Source of the DNA: a virus
Reading direction: 5' to 3' (one strand)
Length of the DNA: 25,351 nt
Virus record (IMG/VR): IMGVR_UViG_3300037245_000922
Coordinates: 1 to 25,351 of that record
Of this stretch, positions 3,771-22,595 are shown one piece after another. Each line of letters begins with the position of its first letter. The stretch's first letter is position 1. The position numbers and the translations under genes were made by a program. Below the pieces are notes generated by a model. The model ran no database searches. It saw nothing but the letters and a program-made list of their open reading frames with translations, and was not told the origin of the DNA.

Positions 3771-4259
3771 TTATAACGACGAGCCTGTTATCTCTATATC
3801 AAACAGACCGTCGACTTCTGATTGTCTTAATCTATCAGTCCCATTTATTTGACCGAAATGGAACACCTTGATTGCGTCATATCTCCCGTCCTTCACACGA
3901 AGGCACCCAATCAAACTATCATCATCGTCTGGACCATCACCATACTTGTAGACAGGGATTGGCTCTAGCATCTCAGCGGAGAACACCCCAGCCCATGTGT
4001 GAATCAAGTAGGCGTTAGTGGCAGTCATCTCAAGCAACTCAGTCAGCATGATGTTTATGACAACATCGGCCAGATAGTAGTCCTTGCTGACTTCCTTGAT
4101 AAACGGTCCGGTCACTCGCATTTCTGAATGACTCTGCCTCATGTCGCTGCCTTCCCTCTCGTCGATGCCTTCGACAAAATAAGGGATATTGTTTGCAGCG
4201 GCGATGTCGGCAAAATGCTTGTTCGCCGAGGCAGCTATCCATCTTGGCAGGTTCTTCAT
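3771..4259 (-). CDS. Tail terminator-like / head-tail joining protein (candidate)
   Basis: A 162-residue protein starting MKNLPRWIAASANKHFADIA at the ATG at 4259, overlapping the stop of the upstream gene as ATGA. It begins with an amphipathic helix, then beta segments (MRVTGPFIKEVSKDYYLADVVINIMLTELL; AYLIHTWAGVFSAEMLEPIPVYKY), and ends with GLFDIEITGSSL, a typical terminal strand of virion proteins. Size, alpha/beta make-up and position immediately before the tail tube gene match tail terminator proteins (gpU-like), which cap the tail tube and join it to the head. No specific signature residue is visible, so this is inferred mainly from gene order. A head completion protein is the alternative. 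Confidence 0.45.
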   Translation of the reverse strand: MKNLPRWIAASANKHFADIAAANNIPYFVEGIDEREGSDMRQSHSEMRVTGPFIKEVSKDYYLADVVINIMLTELLEMTATNAYLIHTWAGVFSAEMLEPIPVYKYGDGPDDDDSLIGCLRVKDGRYDAIKVFHFGQINGTDRLRQSEVDGLFDIEITGSSL

Positions 4260-4555
4260 TTGATGGCTTCCCTGGCTTCAAGAATTTGACTGATGGTTGC
4301 CCCGGCACATTCGGCCTTCGTCACAAGCACCACCGTGTCTTCGTGACGGTAGATGCCCGGCTCTAGCTTCTCTTCGCCGGGGTCTTGCAGTTTGTCTTTG
4401 TGCTTCTCGATCTTTTCCAAGATGTCAGGACCGAACTCAAACTCGTCGGTGTCTGCGCTGGTCACCTGACCAGCCTCTGTAAATCCTGTGCGTAGAATAC
4501 CGTTATGAAAAGCAAACCAGTGGGTTTCTTTGTCTGGCATCAAGTCTTTAATCAT
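4256..4555 (-). CDS. Hypothetical small virion-module protein (99 aa)
   Basis: Not recognised. A 99-residue acidic protein (MIKDLMPDKETHWFAFHNGILRTGF...) joined to both neighbours by ATGA overlaps, so it is very likely translated from the same message. The N-terminus is beta-like, the middle is a charged helix (PDILEKIEKHKDKLQDPGEEKL), and the C-terminus reads EDTVVLVTKAECAGATISQILEAREAIK, a strand followed by an amphipathic helix. No signal peptide or membrane segment is seen. Its position between the connector-fusion gene and the tail terminator candidate suggests a role in head-tail joining or neck assembly, but nothing in the sequence proves it. Confidence 0.75.
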   Translation of the reverse strand: MIKDLMPDKETHWFAFHNGILRTGFTEAGQVTSADTDEFEFGPDILEKIEKHKDKLQDPGEEKLEPGIYRHEDTVVLVTKAECAGATISQILEAREAIK

Positions 4556-6390
4556 GCTGCACCCCCGTCAGTGATGATCCAATTGTCACTGGAGACCAAG
4601 TTTGACCTGGCCACCCCGCCTGCCACGTTGTAAGTGGCAGGAGCTGCATTGAAAGTGACTCCGTTTTGGACAGCCTGAGCATCCCAATCGATCAAAATGC
4701 TACTGTAGTTGACCGTGCTAAGATTTGTCCCATTGAAAATGCTGTTCATAATGCCAACACCTGAGATATCCCACAGACCAAGATCCTGATCGAAGCTGGA
4801 GGCGTTCTGGAACATGTTGTTCAGATTGGATAAGCCAGAAGTGTCCCAACCACTAATGTCTTGGTTGAAACTGGAGGCGTTGGTGAACATGGCGTACGCA
4901 GCTGTCACATTTGATGTGTTCCAGGAACTGATGTCTTGATTGAATGGAGAGCTTGAGAACATGGAGAACATGTCTGTGACGTTTATAGTGTTCCAAGTCG
5001 AGAGGTCTTGGTCGAAGGCACTAGCGAGATTGAACATCGAACCCATGTCGATGACATTGTGGGTGTTCCAACTGCTTAGACTCTGATTAAAGGTACCAGA
5101 AGAGTTGAACATCGCGTTCATGTCGATGACATTGGATGTGTTCCAACTGTTTAGACTCTGGTTGAAGACATTACAAGTGCCGAACGCGAGTTTCATATTG
5201 GTGACTTCAGATGTGTCCCAACCACTCACACCTCCATTAAGAAGGTAGCAACCCAAAAAGGCGCTGAATAAATTTGTTGTGCTCGACAAGTTCAGGTTGT
5301 CCGTGGCATTGCACGTCATCTTTTGACAACCGTGGAAATAGTTCCCGTTGTTACCTACTTTCAATACTCCCCAAGAGCTGATGTTAGATAACTTGTTTTT
5401 GTCGCCGCCAGCGTTGAACCGCCAACCCTCCAAGATGCCAGAGATAGCTAGGGTATAATTTCCAGAGGAATTATACGTGTGAGTGACGGTGGCTTCGTTC
5501 CACGTTGTGATGGTGTTATCATTACCATCACCCCAATCGATGTTGAAGTTATAGTTTCCGGTGGACTCCAAGGGGAGTGTTATTTGCAAATTGTTGCTTG
5601 TTCCTGACTCGGAGGTGTTCCAGGTGGAGACGAAGTCGTTCGCCACCAGCTCGTTACCTGCGTTGCCGGTAAAACTGAGAGAGTTGTTGGCTGACACAGG
5701 GATGTCTCCAACAGTGAATCCGGTGGCCACGACACTGAGATTCAGGGACGAGGTTGCTTCTTTTGTGTTGACGTCGGTAGTGTCGTCAGCCAAACCAAGA
5801 AAATTGCTTAGAGATAATACTCGATCAAAGTTTTTATCGGCGGAGTCGGATAAACCTAACGAGTCAGAGAGGCTTACCGGGAGGTGCCTCCCCATGAAAT
5901 AGGTGACGGAGTCGACGAAGCTCGCCAGACTTTGGGCGCCAGCTCGGAGGTCTTGCGCTGGCACCATTCTCTCGACTTCTCTGGCAACTAGCAGCCACGC
6001 AGTGCTCTGCTCAAACTCTTCGATCGATTTGATGTCATAACGCTTGTCATCGTAGACAAGCCAGTCGTCTTGAAGAATCTCCCAGCCAGGAACATCTCGT
6101 CGGTCAATGATGAATGTTCTAGTACCGACGTCAAACGTGCCTCCCTGCACCACTTTCTTGTTTGCTGAGATAACAGATATCGATTGGATGACATCCCTGG
6201 TGAGTCGGTTGGGAAGGACAACAGCCCGGTTAACGTAGACAGAATCCCTGCTGGCAGCCTTCACGCCTGTCTCAAGATTCGTGGTTGTGCTGTTCAGCTT
6301 GTACACCGTGATCGGGCTTCCGTACTCTTTCTTCATCTGATTGATACAGCGTCGAATGAACCTGATCAAGTTGTAATTCAGCTTAGCCAT
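4552..6390 (-). CDS. Head-closure-like domain fused to PKD and BspA-type (DUF285) repeats
   Basis: A 612-residue protein from the ATG at 6390, overlapping the end of the upstream gene by 8 bases. Residues 1-145 look like a phage head-closure/connector protein: basic helical start, then 'TFDVGTRTFIIDRRDVPGWE', 'DDWLVYDDKRYDIKSIEEFEQ' and 'AWLLVAREVE'. Residues 155-240 form a linker with repeated 'LSLSDSLGLSDSADK'-type segments. Residues 240-320 resemble a PKD-like beta-sandwich (IDWGDGNDN, then VTHTYNSSGNYTL). Residues 385-555 hold about six 24-residue repeats of the type 'W(D/N)TSNVTDMxxMF...FNQDLSS', the BspA/DUF285 signature. The end (NWIITDGGAA) is the usual tail of such repeat proteins. 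The connector domain would dock at the neck and the repeats would project as a decoration or adhesin. The domain calls are pattern-based; the docking model is inference. Confidence 0.75.
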   Translation of the reverse strand: MAKLNYNLIRFIRRCINQMKKEYGSPITVYKLNSTTTNLETGVKAASRDSVYVNRAVVLPNRLTRDVIQSISVISANKKVVQGGTFDVGTRTFIIDRRDVPGWEILQDDWLVYDDKRYDIKSIEEFEQSTAWLLVAREVERMVPAQDLRAGAQSLASFVDSVTYFMGRHLPVSLSDSLGLSDSADKNFDRVLSLSNFLGLADDTTDVNTKEATSSLNLSVVATGFTVGDIPVSANNSLSFTGNAGNELVANDFVSTWNTSESGTSNNLQITLPLESTGNYNFNIDWGDGNDNTITTWNEATVTHTYNSSGNYTLAISGILEGWRFNAGGDKNKLSNISSWGVLKVGNNGNYFHGCQKMTCNATDNLNLSSTTNLFSAFLGCYLLNGGVSGWDTSEVTNMKLAFGTCNVFNQSLNSWNTSNVIDMNAMFNSSGTFNQSLSSWNTHNVIDMGSMFNLASAFDQDLSTWNTINVTDMFSMFSSSPFNQDISSWNTSNVTAAYAMFTNASSFNQDISGWDTSGLSNLNNMFQNASSFDQDLGLWDISGVGIMNSIFNGTNLSTVNYSSILIDWDAQAVQNGVTFNAAPATYNVAGGVARSNLVSSDNWIITDGGAA

Positions 6391-6636: not shown

Positions 6637-7083
6637 TTATTTGGCCCAAACAGTGTTGGGGACGAATGGTGGCGGCGGGTCTTCCAAGGGGTTAATCTGA
6701 AGTTGGGTCTGCACTCCGTTCCACACAATAATCTTGGTATCACGTTCAGGTCCATCTTCCATTCCTGCAATCTTTTCTCGCAGATGAATATCTCGATACA
6801 GCAATGCCAGTACGGTGACCCAGGACTGTAATTGATCTTGTACTACTGGGCTGCGTTGAGCGTCAGCCCACAAATCCGGGAACTTTACTCTCTGGATTTG
6901 TCCAGGGTCATCACTCATTTCCTTTGTGTCGAAGTTGTATGCTTGCAATTCGACTACACCGACAAGAGTGTTGCTGGCGTGGCGACGAACGCCAAAAGCA
7001 GTTATGTACTTGTCAGGATACGTCTTTTCTGCTTTTGCAGACTCGACAATTACATCGTCTGTTTCGATACGTGGAAATGACAT
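6637..7083 (-). CDS. Hypothetical virion-module protein (148 aa)
   Basis: Not recognised. A 148-residue protein starting MSFPRIETDDVIVESAKAEKTY, whose ATG overlaps the TAA of the fibre gene as TAATG. It is mixed alpha/beta, with 'YITAFGVRRHASNTLVGVVELQAYNFD' suggesting beta strands, 'VQDQLQSWVTVLALLYRDIHLREKIAGME' suggesting a long helix, and a Pro-rich end (PLEDPPPPFVPNTVWAK). No signal peptide or transmembrane segment is present. Because it directly follows the long fibre-like gene, it could be a fibre assembly chaperone or an attachment partner, as small genes after phage fibre genes often are. That is an inference from gene order only. Confidence 0.75.
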   Translation of the reverse strand: MSFPRIETDDVIVESAKAEKTYPDKYITAFGVRRHASNTLVGVVELQAYNFDTKEMSDDPGQIQRVKFPDLWADAQRSPVVQDQLQSWVTVLALLYRDIHLREKIAGMEDGPERDTKIIVWNGVQTQLQINPLEDPPPPFVPNTVWAK

Positions 7084-9869
7084 TATGCTGCTGCTCCATT
7101 AACTTGAACTACGTCTAGCATAGCGCTCCACTTAATGTCTCCAAATCCAACAGGTTGAATCACAGTTATGACTATGCTGTTGCCGGTGGTGCCGATGCTA
7201 AAATTAAACCCAGGGTCATCTTCAAAGTCGATTGATAGGGATGGATTTGTTAGCGACGCGTTTGCGATAAGTGCTGGTGAGGCTGTGCCATTTCGTCGGT
7301 AAGCCGCCTTTACCCTATACCCTGCACCATTGCCACCCGATCCAGTTGTGCCCACGATGATTCCAGAGATGTACCAGATTGAGTTGGGTGTCATTATCGG
7401 TAACTTGGCCGATCCATCCAGATACATGGTTCCATTGACGCCACTTGTCGTGGTCCCAGTCAAATGCAATCGGGACCATTGAGCATCACCGTCAACATTG
7501 ATGGACCCGCCAGACCCGGCCAGTTCACCCCAGTGGCTTGCCACTGTGTCCCTACCCATCACAGTACAGTAATCGTCGCTGGACGAGCAGTCACTGCCGC
7601 CAAGGATGGTGCTGTAGTCACCCGTAATCGTGTTACCATCCCCAGCTAGAATAGCACTGCTGATTCCGTTCACCGTGTTATCTGCGCCCAGCAGAACGAT
7701 GCTTGAGTTGTCGGTTGTACCAAACGAGTTGTTACCAGTGTCGAACAGCAATCCGTTCTGTGAGTTCACTGTGAAGGCACGTGTGCCGTCGACCAGTGTA
7801 TACTGAGTGTGGTCGTCGTCGGCCAGCCCACCAAGAGCACCGTGGTCGGTCACGCCACCTCCACCACCTCCACCAACTTGGTTGGAAGGAACCTTGCCTC
7901 GAAGGTCTTCGGTCTGTATGTGGGTCCAGCCGTTGGTGCCCATCTTGAATGTCGAGCGACAGATCAGGAAGGCAGTGCCAGAGTCCAGTGTGAACTCGCG
8001 CGGGAAGTTGTAATCATCGTAGCCGCCAGTGTCAAGCGTGGCGCTCAACTCGCTCGTGTAGTTGCCTGCGGGCAAGTTGATGACCACTCCAGAGCCTTGG
8101 TCGGACTTGTTCTGCACGCCCCAGAAAATCAGACTGAAATATCGGTTGTTGCCGATGGTGTTGCCAGTGGAGTCATCGGTGATGTCAAACAGATTCGATA
8201 CGTGCGTGTAAGGTGCAACGAAGTCGTTGGCTACCAGCAGGATGTTGCCGTTTCCAGTGTCCTTCGCCCCGAAGGTTTGAGGGTGCAACTGAGCAATTAC
8301 GCCAGCAGTCGATTCCCAGTAAATGGTTGAGGCTGCGGGATACGTGAAGTAAGCGTCGTCTTGCCCGTCAGGGTTGACGCCGGAATACCAAGAAGCACCC
8401 AGAGCCAACCGAATCTTGCCAGCGATGTGCGACAAGTGACCTTGACCAACTACGCCCTCGGTATCGGATAGGTGGTCGTTCCAGTTCTGGTTGACGTACG
8501 GTCCACCGTGGTCGTACACGAATTGAGCCGAAGGCACCGCTAAGTAACAAATTTTGATGTGTTCTTCATCTGGCCAAACGCTGTTGCTTGTCAGCAACTT
8601 TGTGCTGAGTGGTATGTAGACCATCGTACCAGCCGGGCTAGTGTCGGTGCCGGGCGTGATGTTGATCGTCTGCGTAGGTGTGCAATCCAGTTGCGTATCA
8701 CCATCGGTGAACTGCATCGTCAGATCGCCGCCACCCGCCTGCTCCAGATAGAGTTGGATGGTGGTGTTGTCTGTCGAGTTGATTGTGGCGTCAAACGTCT
8801 CGCGGGTTGTCCCGTTGAAGAAGTTGCGCTGCGATCGCAGGAGTTCATATCGGTTGCCCGTAGGTTGCCAGCCGTAGAACTGATCGGTTTCAAACGGAAC
8901 CGTGTTGTAGATATTGGACGCCCACTCCAGGTCGTAGATAGGGTCGAGCGATACGAGGATGCTTCCCTCGGTAGCGTGCTGGATGATAACGACGCCGATG
9001 CCTCGGACGTTATCTGGTGCTTCTGGTCTGGGATTTGTATACTCGCCAGCGATAGTGGACAAGTACAATTGGGTATTAGGTGCCCAGTTGGCAGTGTTGA
9101 CATCTCGCATGAGCCCGGCGACGATCATATAACCTTCGTTGCCAGTGTTGATGGTCTCGGTCAGCAGCCCACGAATAAGTGAAGGCACAGGGCTGGGTGC
9201 GCGAGTGGCGTTGCCAGTGGCCACGGTCGGGCGACCATTGCCCACACCCGTGAAGTAAACCGGGGTGCCATTGTTGATCGTGTTGCCAGTGACGTTCTTC
9301 ACCAGGATCAAATGCTCTTGCCCGATCTGCAACTCGACTTCGCTGCCAACCATTCCAAGAGACAAAGTGCCGTCGGCTTCATGCCAGTGGAGTCTTCCAG
9401 TCTGGCGACCGGGGATGTTAGGAGTCAGATCGAAGTCGATGTAATCCAAGTCTGTGATCGCATTGAACGTGGCATTGTTGGAGGTCAGGTTGCCAGTGGT
9501 CACCAAGTTCTCGTCGTCGAAGTTGATGGTGCCGCTGGCGCTCATGATGCTGCCATCAATTACTGCTAGTTCAACGACATCTGCATGATTTGCGCTAAGG
9601 TTCCCAGTGGTGGTGATATGGTCATCTGTGAAGTTCACCGTCCCGGTCAGGCTTGAGATGCTCGGTGTTTGCAGCGCTGTGATGACGGAGAAAAAGTTGG
9701 CCGAGCCAAGGTTCATCGTCACTATGTTGAGCGTGGTATTTAATGTGACATCGAGGTTACCAGTCAGAGTCAGAGTGGCGGTGTCGATCGTGGTGACATC
9801 CAGCGCGTCTACTGGATCAAGCTGCGCGACAATAGAGTCGTCTTGGACTAGCGGCTTGTAGGTTGTCAT
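7083..9869 (-). CDS. Long fibre-like structural protein with repeated beta modules
   Basis: A 928-residue protein joined by ATGA to the upstream gene. Residues 30-140 carry repeats of 'TGNLS/TGTINF' type, typical of fibre shafts. Residues 157-308 contain a module seen in many phage fibres: 'GRLHWHEADGTLSLGM', 'ELQIGQEHLILVKN.TG', 'INNGTPVYFTG', 'QLYLST..GEYT', 'IGVVIIQHATEGSILV'. Residues 315-650 are beta-rich and may form a receptor-binding or carbohydrate-binding domain. A poly-Gly hinge (about residues 669-675) leads into 'DHGALGGLADDDHTQY', a motif common in tail fibres, then 'SSAILAGDGNTITGDYSTILGG' repeats resembling the left-handed rolls of YadA-like head domains, and a beta C-terminus. 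It probably forms a trimeric appendage. Its position directly after head genes leaves open whether it is attached to the head, neck or tail. Confidence 0.8.
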   Translation of the reverse strand: MTTYKPLVQDDSIVAQLDPVDALDVTTIDTATLTLTGNLDVTLNTTLNIVTMNLGSANFFSVITALQTPSISSLTGTVNFTDDHITTTGNLSANHADVVELAVIDGSIMSASGTINFDDENLVTTGNLTSNNATFNAITDLDYIDFDLTPNIPGRQTGRLHWHEADGTLSLGMVGSEVELQIGQEHLILVKNVTGNTINNGTPVYFTGVGNGRPTVATGNATRAPSPVPSLIRGLLTETINTGNEGYMIVAGLMRDVNTANWAPNTQLYLSTIAGEYTNPRPEAPDNVRGIGVVIIQHATEGSILVSLDPIYDLEWASNIYNTVPFETDQFYGWQPTGNRYELLRSQRNFFNGTTRETFDATINSTDNTTIQLYLEQAGGGDLTMQFTDGDTQLDCTPTQTINITPGTDTSPAGTMVYIPLSTKLLTSNSVWPDEEHIKICYLAVPSAQFVYDHGGPYVNQNWNDHLSDTEGVVGQGHLSHIAGKIRLALGASWYSGVNPDGQDDAYFTYPAASTIYWESTAGVIAQLHPQTFGAKDTGNGNILLVANDFVAPYTHVSNLFDITDDSTGNTIGNNRYFSLIFWGVQNKSDQGSGVVINLPAGNYTSELSATLDTGGYDDYNFPREFTLDSGTAFLICRSTFKMGTNGWTHIQTEDLRGKVPSNQVGGGGGGGVTDHGALGGLADDDHTQYTLVDGTRAFTVNSQNGLLFDTGNNSFGTTDNSSIVLLGADNTVNGISSAILAGDGNTITGDYSTILGGSDCSSSDDYCTVMGRDTVASHWGELAGSGGSINVDGDAQWSRLHLTGTTTSGVNGTMYLDGSAKLPIMTPNSIWYISGIIVGTTGSGGNGAGYRVKAAYRRNGTASPALIANASLTNPSLSIDFEDDPGFNFSIGTTGNSIVITVIQPVGFGDIKWSAMLDVVQVNGAAA

Positions 9870-10573
9870 AGCACGACTCCGTCGCTAATCTCTATGTCGA
9901 ACAGGGTCTCGGTGATGGCTCGCCCGACCCGGATGATTATGTGGTTGTCGGTGCTGGGGGCTGTGGTTGTCAGCATACCATCTGTGTCGGACAGGAAGTA
10001 CCATGCTCCGACAGTTAAAGTGGCTGTTCCGGTCACCAGCGACCAGTCTGCTTGATAGACGCTACCCTCGCACAGGACTTCTACGTCTGTTCCGACTGTC
10101 GCGTTGCTATTGGCCAGCCCGACTGGGAATGACTCGATGCTGCCCGCCGAATTGGCTGTTGCCAGATTGGCAGTGTTGCTGGTCGGGATGTAGACCGCCA
10201 TGCCGACATTGATCGTTTCGCCCGCATTCAGCGTGTGGATAGAGGTGTCAGGGTGGTGACCGTCCAGGGACACATGAACGGTGTCTGTCAGGGCCATATT
10301 GTGCGTGGAAACTCTTGGGCGTTCCATATTGGCTGCCGCAGAGTCCACCAGAGCCATTGTGTCGGACCCTGGGTCAGAACCGTGATTCGTGTGGGGTGTG
10401 GCGTCAGAGTCCAGCAGGAGCGTGTTGGAGGCCCCGTGGTTGAAGTCTCCAACCAACGAGACTGTGCTGTCCAACAACAGACCTGAGAAGGTATCTAATC
10501 TCTTCTCAAGGAGCCCTACGCCTCCGTTTAGTGGAACGAAGGGGACTCGCCGGTTGGACATGATGTTGTTCAT
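9866..10573 (-). CDS. Virion decoration-like protein with shared beta module (235 aa)
   Basis: Starts at the ATG at 10573 (MNNIMSNRRVPFVPLNGGVG) as an ATGA overlap with the upstream 95-residue gene. Residues 25-110 contain three to four short repeats around 'LLLDS', 'MALVDS' and 'MALTDTVHVS', resembling repeated strands separated by His/Asp-rich loops. Residues 113-232 form a beta module: 'AGETINVGMAVYIP', 'FPVGLANSNATVGTDVEV', 'YFLSDTDGMLTTTAPS', 'IIRVGRAITETLFDIEI'. A closely similar module makes up most of the 155-residue protein at 18.9-19.3 kb, and a more diverged one lies in the 928-residue fibre. Proximity to the capsid gene suggests a capsid decoration or fibre-base protein. No enzyme motif is seen. 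Confidence 0.7.
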   Translation of the reverse strand: MNNIMSNRRVPFVPLNGGVGLLEKRLDTFSGLLLDSTVSLVGDFNHGASNTLLLDSDATPHTNHGSDPGSDTMALVDSAAANMERPRVSTHNMALTDTVHVSLDGHHPDTSIHTLNAGETINVGMAVYIPTSNTANLATANSAGSIESFPVGLANSNATVGTDVEVLCEGSVYQADWSLVTGTATLTVGAWYFLSDTDGMLTTTAPSTDNHIIIRVGRAITETLFDIEISDGVVL

Positions 10574-13336: not shown

Positions 13337-13873
13337 TCAGTCTGCCCTACTGAGTTTAATGATTCGGCTATCCACGAGGCGTGGCTTCAGCCATCGCCAT
13401 ACGCGAGCCGTTGGAATACCATAGCCGAGGTACTCCGTTGAAGCGCTGTCATCGGCGTAGGTAGTCCGGACAGCGGCATAACCCTGGCGAAGTACGCTCA
13501 GACGCTCAACGGCGTCTTCAGGGTCAAACCCTTCGATAAGTGCGATAGCTATTTCATAGCACGCCCACACAATTTCTCCGGGAACCGTGGTATCTTGACC
13601 ACGGGGAAATTCTAATTCTTGAGTCTGGTCGGCGGCGATAATCTCGTCGCGCGATGGAGTGTTGATCAGCTTCTTAGCATATGGGGTTGTCTGATCATAC
13701 ATGATTTCCCATACAGTGTGCTTGGTGCCTCGATAATTGAGGGCATCAATCAATTGTGTTGCTTCAGTCAACGCCTTCGGTTTGTCGGACGCGACGGCTT
13801 CTGACGATGCGTCGGTATGAAGTAATGAGTCGAAGTATTCGTTTGCGCCTGACACGGACCCGTAGTAGCTCAT
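13337..13873 (-). CDS. Head-tail connector / DnaT-like family protein
   Basis: A 178-residue protein starting MSYYGSVSGANEYFDSLLHTDAS at 13873, overlapping the portal stop as ATGA. The pattern 'yyG.v..AneYf...l....W...a...k..AL..AT..ID.LnyrG.K', here with 'KPKALTEATQLIDALNYRGTKHTVWE', then 'LEFPRGQDTTVPGEIVWACYEIAIALIEGFDPEDAVERL', matches the family often called putative DnaT-like ssDNA-binding protein in phages. That family is a head-tail connector placed after the portal. The family name comes from weak similarity to a replication protein, while the genomic context here points to the neck. The C-terminus (IPTARVWRWLKPRLV) is basic. The family assignment is from the motif pattern. Confidence 0.7.
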   Translation of the reverse strand: MSYYGSVSGANEYFDSLLHTDASSEAVASDKPKALTEATQLIDALNYRGTKHTVWEIMYDQTTPYAKKLINTPSRDEIIAADQTQELEFPRGQDTTVPGEIVWACYEIAIALIEGFDPEDAVERLSVLRQGYAAVRTTYADDSASTEYLGYGIPTARVWRWLKPRLVDSRIIKLSRAD

Positions 13874-19340: not shown

Positions 19341-19574
19341 TTATATATCCCATTCCTTCTTCCAGTCGCTTGTTTTGTGCGGCTTGGCGGCCTTGCGGCC
19401 TTTCATGATTATGGAAAAGTCATCACCATACTTGATATAGTATTGTGAGTTATCGAACTCAATGATCGTGTCGTCGTCTGTGTCGATGGTTGTGTCGAGT
19501 ATGACATGCAGTTCGTCGTCCGACTTGCGGAAGATGGCGAGTAGTGGCTTATGGTCTTTGAGTTTCAGCTTCAT
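19341..19574 (-). CDS. Hypothetical small acidic beta protein (77 aa)
   Basis: Not recognised. The start is placed at the ATG at 19574 (MKLKLKDHKPLLAIFRKSDDELHVIL), which overlaps the LRR gene stop as ATGA; an in-frame ATG at 19589 would lie inside the LRR gene. The product alternates short hydrophobic strands with acidic loops (DTTIDTDDDTIIEFDNSQYYIKYGDDFSIIMKG) and ends with a basic/Trp segment (KPHKTSDWKKEWDI). It could be a small beta-barrel chaperone or partner for the LRR protein upstream, given the tight coupling, but no function can be read directly. Confidence 0.7.
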   Translation of the reverse strand: MKLKLKDHKPLLAIFRKSDDELHVILDTTIDTDDDTIIEFDNSQYYIKYGDDFSIIMKGRKAAKPHKTSDWKKEWDI

Positions 19575-20650
19575 CGTAGCACCGTCCATCCTTTGCCGAC
19601 CAAGTTAGAGATGGCAGTGTTGGCCGACCCGCTGCGACTGGCGTCCTGTCCAGGTGCTCCGTTCAGTCGGTAATCAACATATCCGTTGCTTGTGCCACAG
19701 CCATCGAGAGCGATTAACATGTCGTCGATCGGCGTGGCCGTCATCACGTTGCTGCGAGTGTCGAGGTATATGAGGCTGGTCCACTGAGGGTGAATCACGA
19801 TGTCTAGTCCGTTGAAATTCTTCTCTACGGACAGCAATTCAAGGGATGTCCACTCGGGGTGTGTGACAAATGTGTCAAGATTGTGATAAGAGGCTCGCAA
19901 GTCCTCAAGAGCTACCCACTCGGGGTGAGTTTCTATTTCTGTCAGTGAGGCATTATTGCTGCCATTGTTGAATTTAATGTAGGTGCATTTGGTCCAAGTG
20001 TTGGCGGTGTTGACGCTTCCCCACGAACAATAACCAGCGTCCAAAAACTCAAGATCGGGCCACGCTTTACCATCAAACGCTACCATTGAGGTGTTGTGAT
20101 CTAACTGAAAATCCTTCAGCTTTGGCCAGTCGTGATAATCAATGTCTGGTAATGAGTCAGTTCGCTGACTGTGGACATAGAACTCAGTCAGGTCGGGCCA
20201 CTCGTGTGTCTGGAATGATTTCAGGTCACAAGAATTGACTCTAATCAAGTTTATTGACGTCCACTCTTCAAACGTGTCGATTGACTCCAAGTAAATGTTG
20301 GCATCCAGTTTAAGGTCTGCCAAGTTGGACCACCTCTTCCCCTTCAACTTGAATTCAGTAACGCTCTGGTTGCGGCATGTGAAAGCTGTCAGAATTGCTG
20401 TCAGCTTTTGTGTGATGGTGCCACCGTTGGAGCTGTTCCATGTGATAGTTGGATTGTGACCGACATGGATTGTCACGTTGCCGGTGTCCAGGTCGATGGC
20501 TTTCCATGTCGATTGCGAAGAGTCCGCAAACGCAGTGGACGGAATGATGGAAGACTGGTTGTTCGTGACGGTGATCGAGCCGAATACCCCGTTCTGTGGG
20601 ACAAATCGGCGTCCTCGATCATTCATGTCAGCTCTGCGTGTCATAGCCAT
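19571..20650 (-). CDS. Leucine-rich-repeat-like virion or adhesion protein
   Basis: The preferred start is the ATG at 20650 (MAMTRRADMNDRGRRFVPQNG), with AAGGA ten bases upstream; a TTG at 20680 gives ten more residues. After a beta-like region (about residues 20-95), residues 95-320 hold roughly ten irregular repeats of 20-24 residues with the core 'W..L..L......L..f..H.EW', e.g. 'THPEWTSLELLSVEKNFNGL', 'IHPQWTSLIYLDTRSN', 'HEWPDLTEFYVHSQ', 'HDWPKLKDFQLDH'. The regularly placed Trp and the phase resemble leucine-rich repeats with Trp at one conserved position. The end (NTAISNLVGKGWTVLR) is like the closing segment of BspA-type repeat proteins. No signal peptide is seen. Position among small beta-type virion genes suggests a surface-exposed virion protein for host contact. 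Confidence 0.65.
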   Translation of the reverse strand: MAMTRRADMNDRGRRFVPQNGVFGSITVTNNQSSIIPSTAFADSSQSTWKAIDLDTGNVTIHVGHNPTITWNSSNGGTITQKLTAILTAFTCRNQSVTEFKLKGKRWSNLADLKLDANIYLESIDTFEEWTSINLIRVNSCDLKSFQTHEWPDLTEFYVHSQRTDSLPDIDYHDWPKLKDFQLDHNTSMVAFDGKAWPDLEFLDAGYCSWGSVNTANTWTKCTYIKFNNGSNNASLTEIETHPEWVALEDLRASYHNLDTFVTHPEWTSLELLSVEKNFNGLDIVIHPQWTSLIYLDTRSNVMTATPIDDMLIALDGCGTSNGYVDYRLNGAPGQDASRSGSANTAISNLVGKGWTVLR

Positions 20651-20672
20651 GACTTGAGCGTCCTTGCTAGAG

Positions 20673-20996
20673 TTAGACAATCAACCAGTGAATGAAGTCG
20701 TTTGCGGTCGCGTTGTTTGCGTAAATCGTTTCTGGGTCTTTTACTGGAAGAAATATCGCGTCCCCCGCTTCGAGCGGGAAGCCACACCCTACACTGGTCT
20801 TGGTGCGACCGACACCTATTGTGCCGATGTAGACAACACCACCGTTGTCTGGATTGGCTTTCAGTTGCACACCCTTCTTTGGCAGAGCATGTGGAACATC
20901 CACTACCTTTGATACGGTGCTGGTTGAAGCAAGATTTGTTGTTCCGTGTTGCAACACATCGGAGGTGTCATTGTATACATCTACTGGCTGTGGCAT
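20673..20996 (-). CDS. Small virion-type protein (107 aa)
   Basis: Starts at the ATG at 20996, which overlaps the TAA of the preceding 50-residue gene as TAATG. The product (MPQPVDVYNDTSDVLQHGTTNLASTSTVSKVV...) contains 'KGVQLKANPDNGGVVYIGTIGVGRTKTSVGCGFPLEAGDAIFLPVKDPETIYANNATANDFIHWLIV'. The pattern 'kGv.lkA.p.N.g.VYIG..gV....g..L.aGd...lpv.d...iya......  .v.wl.v' is common in small phage beta-sandwich proteins located among structural genes. It is likely a virion-associated protein. The LRR gene follows after a 22-base gap. Confidence 0.75.
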   Translation of the reverse strand: MPQPVDVYNDTSDVLQHGTTNLASTSTVSKVVDVPHALPKKGVQLKANPDNGGVVYIGTIGVGRTKTSVGCGFPLEAGDAIFLPVKDPETIYANNATANDFIHWLIV

Positions 20997-21148
20997 TATC
21001 GTCCGACTCCTGCGGCCCAGGCGGTTCCACCGGCTGCTTTGGCTTTCGAGTAAGGTGATTCGATTTTGACCGGCACGGAAGGCGCGCCTTTCTTACCGTC
21101 AGTAGCTGCTGGGGTGGTCGATTTGCCGACCACAAGTTTCTTCACCAT
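20996..21148 (-). CDS. Small hypothetical protein (50 aa)
   Basis: A 50-residue ORF between the thioredoxin gene and the 107-residue gene: starts ATG GTG AAG at 21148 (MVKKLVVGKSTTPAATDGKKG) and ends GGTAWAAGVGR. Its start overlaps the thioredoxin stop and its TAA overlaps the next ATG (TAATG), so it exactly fills the space and is probably translated by coupling. It is basic at the N-terminus and rich in Ala, Gly, Lys and Thr, with no membrane segment. Function unknown; it might be a small virion or nucleic-acid-binding peptide. Confidence 0.6.
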   Translation of the reverse strand: MVKKLVVGKSTTPAATDGKKGAPSVPVKIESPYSKAKAAGGTAWAAGVGR

Positions 21149-21606
21149 AATTTGTTTCCTCTGTCGTAAACGCCTCGGTGCTTGTCGACCACCATTAGGA
21201 TCTTGTCGGAGGTCTGGTAACCGGTGAAGCGTTTTCGCTCACCGCCTTTGTACATTACGATGATCGTTGGGACCACTTTAATGCCCTTCGGGATTTTGTC
21301 GGTGTCGAAGTCCAACACTTGGACCGAGCAGCCGGATGTCAAGAGTGCGTAGAGCTGTTCTTGTTTGAATCGTTGGCAGGGTCCGCACCAGTCTGCGGTG
21401 ACAATGACGATTTGGTAGACATCTCGACCCTCGATAGGTCGATCCATTTGTTCACTATCAAGTAAAGCTCGCTCAGGCGCAACCATGACGGACCCTTGAG
21501 CAAGGTGGTCCGCAGAAGGTTCTTGACTCGCAACCAAAGCTGAATGCGCGACAAATATCGCGAAGCAGATGTAAAGCGTGGTAAACGCATTGAAGGCTCG
21601 TTTCAT
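21142..21606 (-). CDS. Membrane-anchored or exported thioredoxin-like protein
   Basis: The start is placed at the ATG at 21606 (MKRAFNAFTTLYICFAIFVAHSALVASQ), with GGTGAG upstream; a TTG at 21618 is in frame. Residues 1-28 form a basic start plus hydrophobic segment, a signal peptide or membrane anchor. The thioredoxin fold follows: 'VYQIVIVTADWCGPCQRFKQEQL', with the active site WCGPC near residues 73-77, then 'VQVLDFDTDKIPKGIKVVPTIIVMYKGGERKRFTGY', where VVPT carries the cis-proline. All key residues for disulfide redox activity are present. Location outside the cytoplasm is implied by the leader. It lies directly after an exported cysteine peptidase whose active-site Cys and many further Cys could be its substrate. 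Phages do encode thioredoxins, but usually cytoplasmic ones. Confidence 0.85.
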   Translation of the reverse strand: MKRAFNAFTTLYICFAIFVAHSALVASQEPSADHLAQGSVMVAPERALLDSEQMDRPIEGRDVYQIVIVTADWCGPCQRFKQEQLYALLTSGCSVQVLDFDTDKIPKGIKVVPTIIVMYKGGERKRFTGYQTSDKILMVVDKHRGVYDRGNKLW

Positions 21607-21611
21607 ATTTC

Positions 21612-22595
21612 TCACCAAATGATGTAAGGTATTGTCACGCGTGGATACCCGACGTAGGCACTAAGGGCGAATGAGTCGCGTTGTCGCAACATGCTGTCCA
21701 CGGTGCTCTTGTCTATCCAAAACGTGCCAGTGGGTTGATTGTGGCGTGTTGGGCCATAGACCCATTTTGATCCCCAGCTATTGAAGCACAGTGCGCCTTT
21801 TCTAGATGCTCTGTCGTCGAACCCGCCAAAAAGCATACAATGCTTCCATGGTCGTCGTTTCCGCGTCAAAAAGCCCTGAGAATCTCGTTTGATTGGTCTT
21901 CGTGAGTCTCCGAAGCCAACATTCGAGCAAACAACCACGGGGTGGCCATTTGCGATGCAATCACACATATCGGCGTAGGAAGTGCAAATTGCCGTCTTCT
22001 TAACCGGGTGAAGCTTGGTGAGAGGCTCCAATGGGTCGGGACAGCCAGTCCTACCATATTCTTTCGCTTTGTTCGCGCTGTAGTTTGTAAAGTCGTAACC
22101 GCCGGGGTACTCTTGCCTCAAAAGTATGCCATAGCGAGAGATCCACTCGGCTGCCCAGTGTCCTGTGCTCCCGCCGCCGTAACCATCATATCCGCCGACT
22201 TCGATTCTGCTGCCGCCGTAGATCGGCTCTGTAGCTGCCTTGCCCTTCCATAGCTCGGCTTTTCGCTCAACAACGATCTGTATGGCGGTTAGGAAGTCAA
22301 CGCCCAGAGCGAAGCCCTGTGAGACACAATCGGGGGCTCCCTGGTCATGCGGGACATATGCCTTCCCGGTGATTCGCTCGAACGCTTTGTGCAGAAAGAC
22401 AATCTTGCCTTTTCCGCTTCCTTTTATCTCTTCGTTGCAATCAGTGACGTAGGGGTTACGGTGCCGATGAATGAAATCGAGGAGCGAAATGTCATCTCGC
22501 ATCCAGCCAAATTTGCTGGCCGATTTGAAGTCCGCTGAAACAGGTGTCGCGATGGTGGCGACTGCAATGACTTTCAACGCGGTCCTGCGATCCAT
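21612..22595 (-). CDS. Exported papain-like (C1-type) cysteine peptidase
   Basis: A 327-residue protein from the ATG at 22595, with AGGAG seven bases upstream. The N-terminus (MDRRTALKVIAVATIATPVSA) combines twin arginines with a hydrophobic segment and an Ala-x-Ala-like cleavage site, resembling a Tat signal peptide. Papain-type landmarks follow: Gln85 and Cys90 (HDQGAPDCVSQGFALG), His252 (WKHCMLFGGFDD) and Asn272 (CFNSWGSKW), in the right order. The Gln-to-Cys spacing is one residue shorter than in papain. The region between (Trp147 to Leu195, Gly/Tyr-rich) may shape the substrate cleft. It could act in virion maturation, on host envelope protein, or in cell lysis; no amidase or lysozyme gene is visible in the window. 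The peptidase fold is well supported by motifs; the biological role is inference. Confidence 0.8.
   Translation of the reverse strand: MDRRTALKVIAVATIATPVSADFKSASKFGWMRDDISLLDFIHRHRNPYVTDCNEEIKGSGKGKIVFLHKAFERITGKAYVPHDQGAPDCVSQGFALGVDFLTAIQIVVERKAELWKGKAATEPIYGGSRIEVGGYDGYGGGSTGHWAAEWISRYGILLRQEYPGGYDFTNYSANKAKEYGRTGCPDPLEPLTKLHPVKKTAICTSYADMCDCIANGHPVVVCSNVGFGDSRRPIKRDSQGFLTRKRRPWKHCMLFGGFDDRASRKGALCFNSWGSKWVYGPTRHNQPTGTFWIDKSTVDSMLRQRDSFALSAYVGYPRVTIPYIIW

Follow-up and report, generated by a model that had tools for sequence, protein, structure and literature searches.

A stopper protein with a PKD and BspA repeat arm probably equips the neck of an uncultured tailed phage group with adhesive fibres

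Can a ring of the phage neck itself carry fibres? Neck rings are commonly viewed as conserved plumbing, and neck whiskers, spikes and neck-passage proteins (NPS) are known as separate proteins. The stretch of DNA analysed here (the window; 25,351 bases, an IMG/VR record consisting of one metagenome contig) raises the question with a 612-aa open reading frame (ORF) in which a putative stopper is continued by an adhesin-type arm. Related loci from other contigs are designated by L numbers.

The arm-bearing gene of the window

The ORF runs on the minus strand from 6390 to 4552 in a single frame. A preliminary description of the window had given the right coordinates and had rightly held the frame to be continuous without any frameshift; what needed correction was the strand, since the plus strand across this region is packed with stop codons. 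The genes are ordered terminase, portal, adaptor Ad1, scaffold, capsid, decoration genes, armed stopper, small gene g99, tail terminator, tail tube, a chaperone-like gene and the start of a likely tape measure gene (Table 1). The position just ahead of the tail terminator satisfies the positional test for a head-closure protein, and a second copy of the stopper gene is absent from the window. A programmed frameshift joining a short stopper to a separate arm gene was considered and rejected, because relatives with a short stopper have the tail terminator as their next gene downstream.

Table 1. Coordinates of the features discussed, in window numbering
Feature	Position	Strand	Basis
Anchor, head-closure/stopper (Hc1) domain, residues 1-147	5950..6390	-	PF05521, PHROG161, AF2, Foldseek
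Stalk/linker, weak repeats of about 20-22 residues (xxSLxLSDxA...), residues 148-255	5626..5949	-	Autocorrelation
PKD-like domain, residues 256-320 (approximate limits)	5431..5625	-	PKD_4, E 7e-4
BspA/DUF285 knob: N-terminal part, six repeats, C-terminal cap	4552..5430	-	DUF285, E 4.5e-74
g99, 99 aa, 4-nt overlap with arm gene	4256..4555	-	Position
Tail terminator, short in the window	3771..4259	-	AF2 pLDDT 91.9, Foldseek
Probable capsid cement protein	9866..10573	-	Phage_cement_2, E 2e-5
Head-tail adaptor Ad1, short in the window	13337..13873	-	PHROG477 Ad1, E 4e-11
s98-type small gene, overlaps LRR arm gene	19341..19589	-	Position, homology
Second repeat arm, LRR, on a different N-terminus	19571..20680	-	Homologous to L022/L023 stopper LRR arm

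The first approximately 145 residues had been proposed to be a head-closure or connector protein, a proposal that would have fallen had residues 1-150 matched no connector family. On its own, the window sequence gives a Phage_HCP (PF05521) match at residues 27-138 (E 4e-4 for the domain alone) that, at 21.3 bits, is below the Pfam cut-off of 25 bits. Among 52 diverse family members, 35 match PHROG 161 (Hc1; best 3.5e-7) and 19 match PF05521 (best 6e-5). An AlphaFold2 model made on the family alignment (a single chain of residues 1-147, neither full-length nor an oligomer) has a mean pLDDT of 79.7, and its top 18 Foldseek matches in the PDB are all phage proteins, almost exclusively stoppers and neck proteins, including those of T1, Pam3, lambda, NF5, T4, XM1 and SPP1. 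The E value against the T1 stopper is 1.5e-5, followed by lambda, SPP1 and XM1. Head-tail joining proteins were matched in a viral structure library, and a search of PDB sequences with the stopper profile returned chance matches only. With family profile and predicted fold both matching, the proposal stands, and residues 1-147 are, on this basis, a head-closure stopper. None of 50,697 phage records matched as a relative of this stopper family, so that it is without a cultured relative. A host in the Planctomycetota was entertained on account of one stopper-bearing MAG contig and rejected, as this is 1 of 392 genomes of the phylum and the contig looks like phage.

Beyond the anchor, the autocorrelation of residues 148-255 peaks at 22 and 20. 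These stalk repeats had been overlooked and are much clearer in relatives, with a sharp 20-residue period in L127, L114, L145 and L004. The PKD domain described earlier is supported by a match, but only a weak one (residues 271-314) that falls short of the Pfam cut-off; the PKD-like region is conserved in L001, L003, L004 and L007. The DUF285 match is well beyond chance and, with repeats of about 25 residues, meets the test for membership. Approximately six BspA-type repeats had been noticed, and six are counted, starting at residues 409, 434, 459, 483, 508 and 533 with a spacing of 25 or 24 (block at residues 409-557, coordinates 4720-5166). The C-terminal cap ends in WIITDGG, and arms homologous to the window BspA arm have 46-57% identity.

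Several further genes are of note. Read directly, the cement protein has stalk-like repeats in its N-terminal half, and its N-terminus (RRVPFVPLNG) is like that of the LRR arm protein (RRFVPQNG), perhaps reflecting a shared capsid-binding peptide. Between the capsid and neck genes, a 928-aa protein without a family match (7083-9869, minus strand), whose relatives vary from 447 to 1377 aa, is likely a head fibre. At 21142-22595 (minus strand), a papain-type peptidase-like protein with a Tat-like leader adjoins a thioredoxin-like gene, and a similar protein is present in the L082 contig (L176 88-1071). Small Cys-rich, endonuclease-like genes are repeatedly inserted directly before the capsid gene (L001 3905-4738, L012 5525-7391 and L006 1063-1914).

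Recurrence of armed stoppers

A protein with stopper, PKD and BspA parts is also found in L003 and L145, independent contigs from other metagenomes. Because they share the architecture, the fusion in the window is, judged from sequence, no assembly error; the outcome named beforehand as fatal, separate parts in relatives with the fusion made in assembly, did not materialise. Short-stopper relatives do exist, and in L001, L004 and L007 the BspA module sits on the neighbouring tail terminator.

We compared 114 distinct stoppers drawn from 173 sequence records. Their C-terminal tails are bimodal: nearly all are 14-44 aa long, which is about one stalk unit, versus 259-1592 aa in the 12 stoppers with a complete C-terminal arm. 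About 90% of the surveyed stoppers are unarmed; since loci were chosen as best matches, 12 of 114 is not an unbiased rate. The complete arms show five knob types, namely BspA (three: window, L003 and L145), DUF6923 propeller (three: L001, L092 and L105), WD40 propeller (two: L041 and L082), LRR (two: L022 and L023, plus a truncated one in L153) and LamG lectin (two: L114 and L127). On a stopper tree made from few columns, the armed and unarmed states switch about ten times, one of these switches perhaps being due to a truncated contig (L038). In L009, L039 and L117, a propeller-like arm with its stalk precedes the stopper in the same frame, although translation might begin internally at the stopper. 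Two other N-terminal extensions were left uncounted: that of L143 looks like an out-of-frame open stretch, and that of L047 has only 83 aa and possibly a wrong start. The stopper of L127 (3252-8480) has 1742 aa and ends in a LamG lectin domain on a long stalk of 20-residue repeats, which alone takes up approximately 1,350 residues.

In the close pair L041/L082, purifying selection acts on all three parts alike, with dN/dS values of 0.12 (anchor), 0.18 (stalk) and 0.17 (knob). Among the window, L003 and L145, the arms are 50-56% identical versus 67-73% for the anchors; by this measure, arms evolve faster than anchors in this group. All 12 records that were searched whole (up to 125 kb; seven of them armed, none known to be complete) have a single stopper copy. 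With a single-copy stopper and no unarmed version visible beside it, each subunit of the ring should bear an arm.

Arms on other neck rings and their partner genes

The gene next to the stopper is identified by its predicted fold as a tail terminator: its model matches the FCWL1 and T1 terminators, T5 p142 and lambda gpU in Foldseek, meeting the fold test, and PHROG gave no convincing match. The PKD and BspA arm of L001, L004 and L007 is at the C-terminus of this protein, and in L004 (2662-5982) the terminator and two tandem PKD+BspA knobs, 67% identical to each other, make one 1106-aa protein. L001 combines a propeller on the stopper with BspA on the terminator. Stopper BspA arms are no nearer to one another than to most terminator BspA arms, and hence the module has apparently passed from one neck-ring carrier to another. 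L014 (8725-14776) and L024 (10983-16905) have three tandem terminator paralogues, one of which bears a 1,500-residue N-terminal lectin arm that in L014 contains DUF2341/LamG domains; such loci possibly give rise to mixed rings in which the arms are sub-stoichiometric. The adaptor is armed as well, with a DUF6923-type propeller joined to its N-terminus by a proline-rich linker in L045, L047, L050, L056 and L057. These five phages are close relatives and perhaps represent a single event. All adaptor arms are N-terminal, which fits the adaptor C-terminus being buried in the portal (PMC11445458).

Small genes accompany some of the arms. Immediately after the BspA arm gene, g99 is found in the window, L001, L004 and L007, and one gene further in L145; it is absent from L003, and beyond the BspA-arm phages there is just a weak match in L086. 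A small gene behind the BspA gene of phage KZY1 was tried as g99 and is not homologous. Behind each of the five complete LRR arm genes found (L022, L023, L024, L091 and the window) lies an s98 homologue, and the window's overlapping pair of LRR arm and s98-type gene recurs on the stopper in L022 and L023. Neither g99 nor s98 has a convincing family match. Going by position and by the analogy of tail-fibre assembly genes, g99 is a candidate arm-assembly chaperone and s98 a candidate partner or chaperone of the LRR arm.

Fibres at the neck and what they may do

Stoppers are hexameric in JBD30 (PMC11445458) and 812 (PMC12886913), so that about six arms are expected and not the up to a dozen projections suggested in the preliminary description; terminators likewise form hexamers, and adaptors form dodecamers (PMC12886913; PMC11445458). 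We propose that the C-terminus of the stopper subunit faces outward and continues into a flexible repeat stalk with a PKD+BspA knob, and that a ring of about six such subunits would lie between the adaptor and the tail terminator. Six stalked knobs would then project sideways from the neck, as collar fibres covalently built into the ring. They would most likely bind host-surface glycans or proteins, as auxiliary low-affinity, high-avidity adhesins holding the virion near the cell. Knobs are swapped among phages and from one neck ring to another, with the anchor remaining constant. The fusion architecture is well supported; stoichiometry, outward position, virion presence, ligand and adhesion are inferred. 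The possibility of a collar fibre, raised at the outset, is still the best reading in light of the stopper anchor, the L003/L145 fusion and the terminator arms, with adhesion not shown. Overall, we consider it likely that the only stopper subunit of this phage carries a stalked knob and makes approximately six covalent collar fibres binding the host surface or its glycans, and the necks of this uncultured group probably bristle with adhesive fibres, whose presence on the virion is inferred. With less assurance, we lean towards the broader view that all three neck rings are interchangeable display platforms for a stalk and swappable knob, some with a small partner gene, at the outward terminus, making up a new covalent receptor-binding apparatus.

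Related structures are known. The predicted fold and gene position recall the stoppers SPP1 gp16, lambda gpFII and that of T1 (Phage_HCP, Hc1), which have about 105-125 residues and are armless. In phage 812, stopper termini touch external decoration proteins, and the stopper has just a small external beta-sandwich compared with the long arm in the window (PMC12886913). The XM1 collar spike gp40 docks on the rings of stopper gp4 and terminator gp5, two of the kinds of ring that carry arms here, but is a separate 839-aa trimer that docks non-covalently by an Ig-like domain (PMC10457771). The NPS of lactococcal 936/TP901-1 phages likewise pair a conserved anchor with variable carbohydrate-binding knobs at the neck, and proteins with swapped modules bind host cells, weakly (PMC6669499); they differ in that the gene is separate and unfused to stopper or terminator, the anchor resembles BppU and some have a coiled-coil. 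Neither BppU nor fibritin is among the Pfam matches of the window protein at E<=1, which sets it apart from both the NPS and the T4-type whisker; its anchor is the stopper itself. The neck fibres of Anabaena phage A-1(L) (gp82-gp81-gp80) share the order of anchor, repeated beads and distal CBM, but are built from three separate proteins, and a 15-mer ring bears five of these trimeric fibres (PMC10966104). Related BspA repeats are contained in 112 records of phages, for the most part of the jumbo or cyanophage kind, in some cases with a PKD-like part and cap; in the two examples examined, the module is on another protein in which no stopper, terminator or adaptor domain was seen. In the literature searched, which left most subscription papers uncovered, we met no description of arms of this kind joined to a stopper, terminator or adaptor. 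Neck whiskers and phage BspA modules are already known, and the covalent stopper-arm build is, as far as that literature goes, new.

Adhesion by the neck arms is likely but not certain, given that NPS knobs bind cells weakly whereas the A-1(L) CBM failed to bind its host (PMC10966104), and the sequences of the window and its relatives hold no evidence of ligand or host. The arms might bind non-host targets such as extracellular matrix, particles or free glycans and so keep the virion where hosts live. LamG, LRR and propeller are general adhesion folds for which this is possible, and jumbo phages have LamG lectins on virion parts (PMC7824862); with no direct evidence for it, and no way to distinguish it from host binding by sequence, we keep this as a possible if unlikely reading. 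The A-1(L) result also means that neck fibres need not be adhesins at all, and the arms could serve in assembly, as a brace for the neck or as guides when tail fibres attach. T4 fibritin whiskers are thought to act in this way (PMC10966104), and neck decorations may reinforce the neck (PMC12886913). We find such a role of the arms rather doubtful, as a brace would not be expected to vary in fold (BspA, LRR, propellers, LamG), to shift among adaptor, stopper and terminator, or to be missing from most surveyed stoppers.

Some phages process structural proteins, and knob removal by cleavage during assembly could happen. The small genes beside BspA and LRR arms might suggest that the arm merely helps folding or assembly for a time and is cleaved or lost on the way to the mature virion. 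This is very improbable, since the adhesin-type folds of the knobs are whole, C-caps included, and no protease or cleavage motif linked to them was seen. Finally, an artefact (chimeric contig or missed stop) or a separately made arm, conceivable for a single contig whose relatives mostly have a short stopper, is largely refuted and scarcely credible given the fusions shared by L003 and L145 and by L041 and L082, with purifying selection throughout the latter and no stop or frameshift in any fusion.

If neck rings are indeed display platforms, a virion may have up to two armed rings, as in L001. Adhesive collar fibres would also mean that short "connector" annotations can conceal adhesins, and their defined knobs offer a way to test what neck whiskers do, which is debated. 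The repeated use of neck rings as fibre anchors would point to a second evolvable adhesion site in these phages, away from the tail tip.
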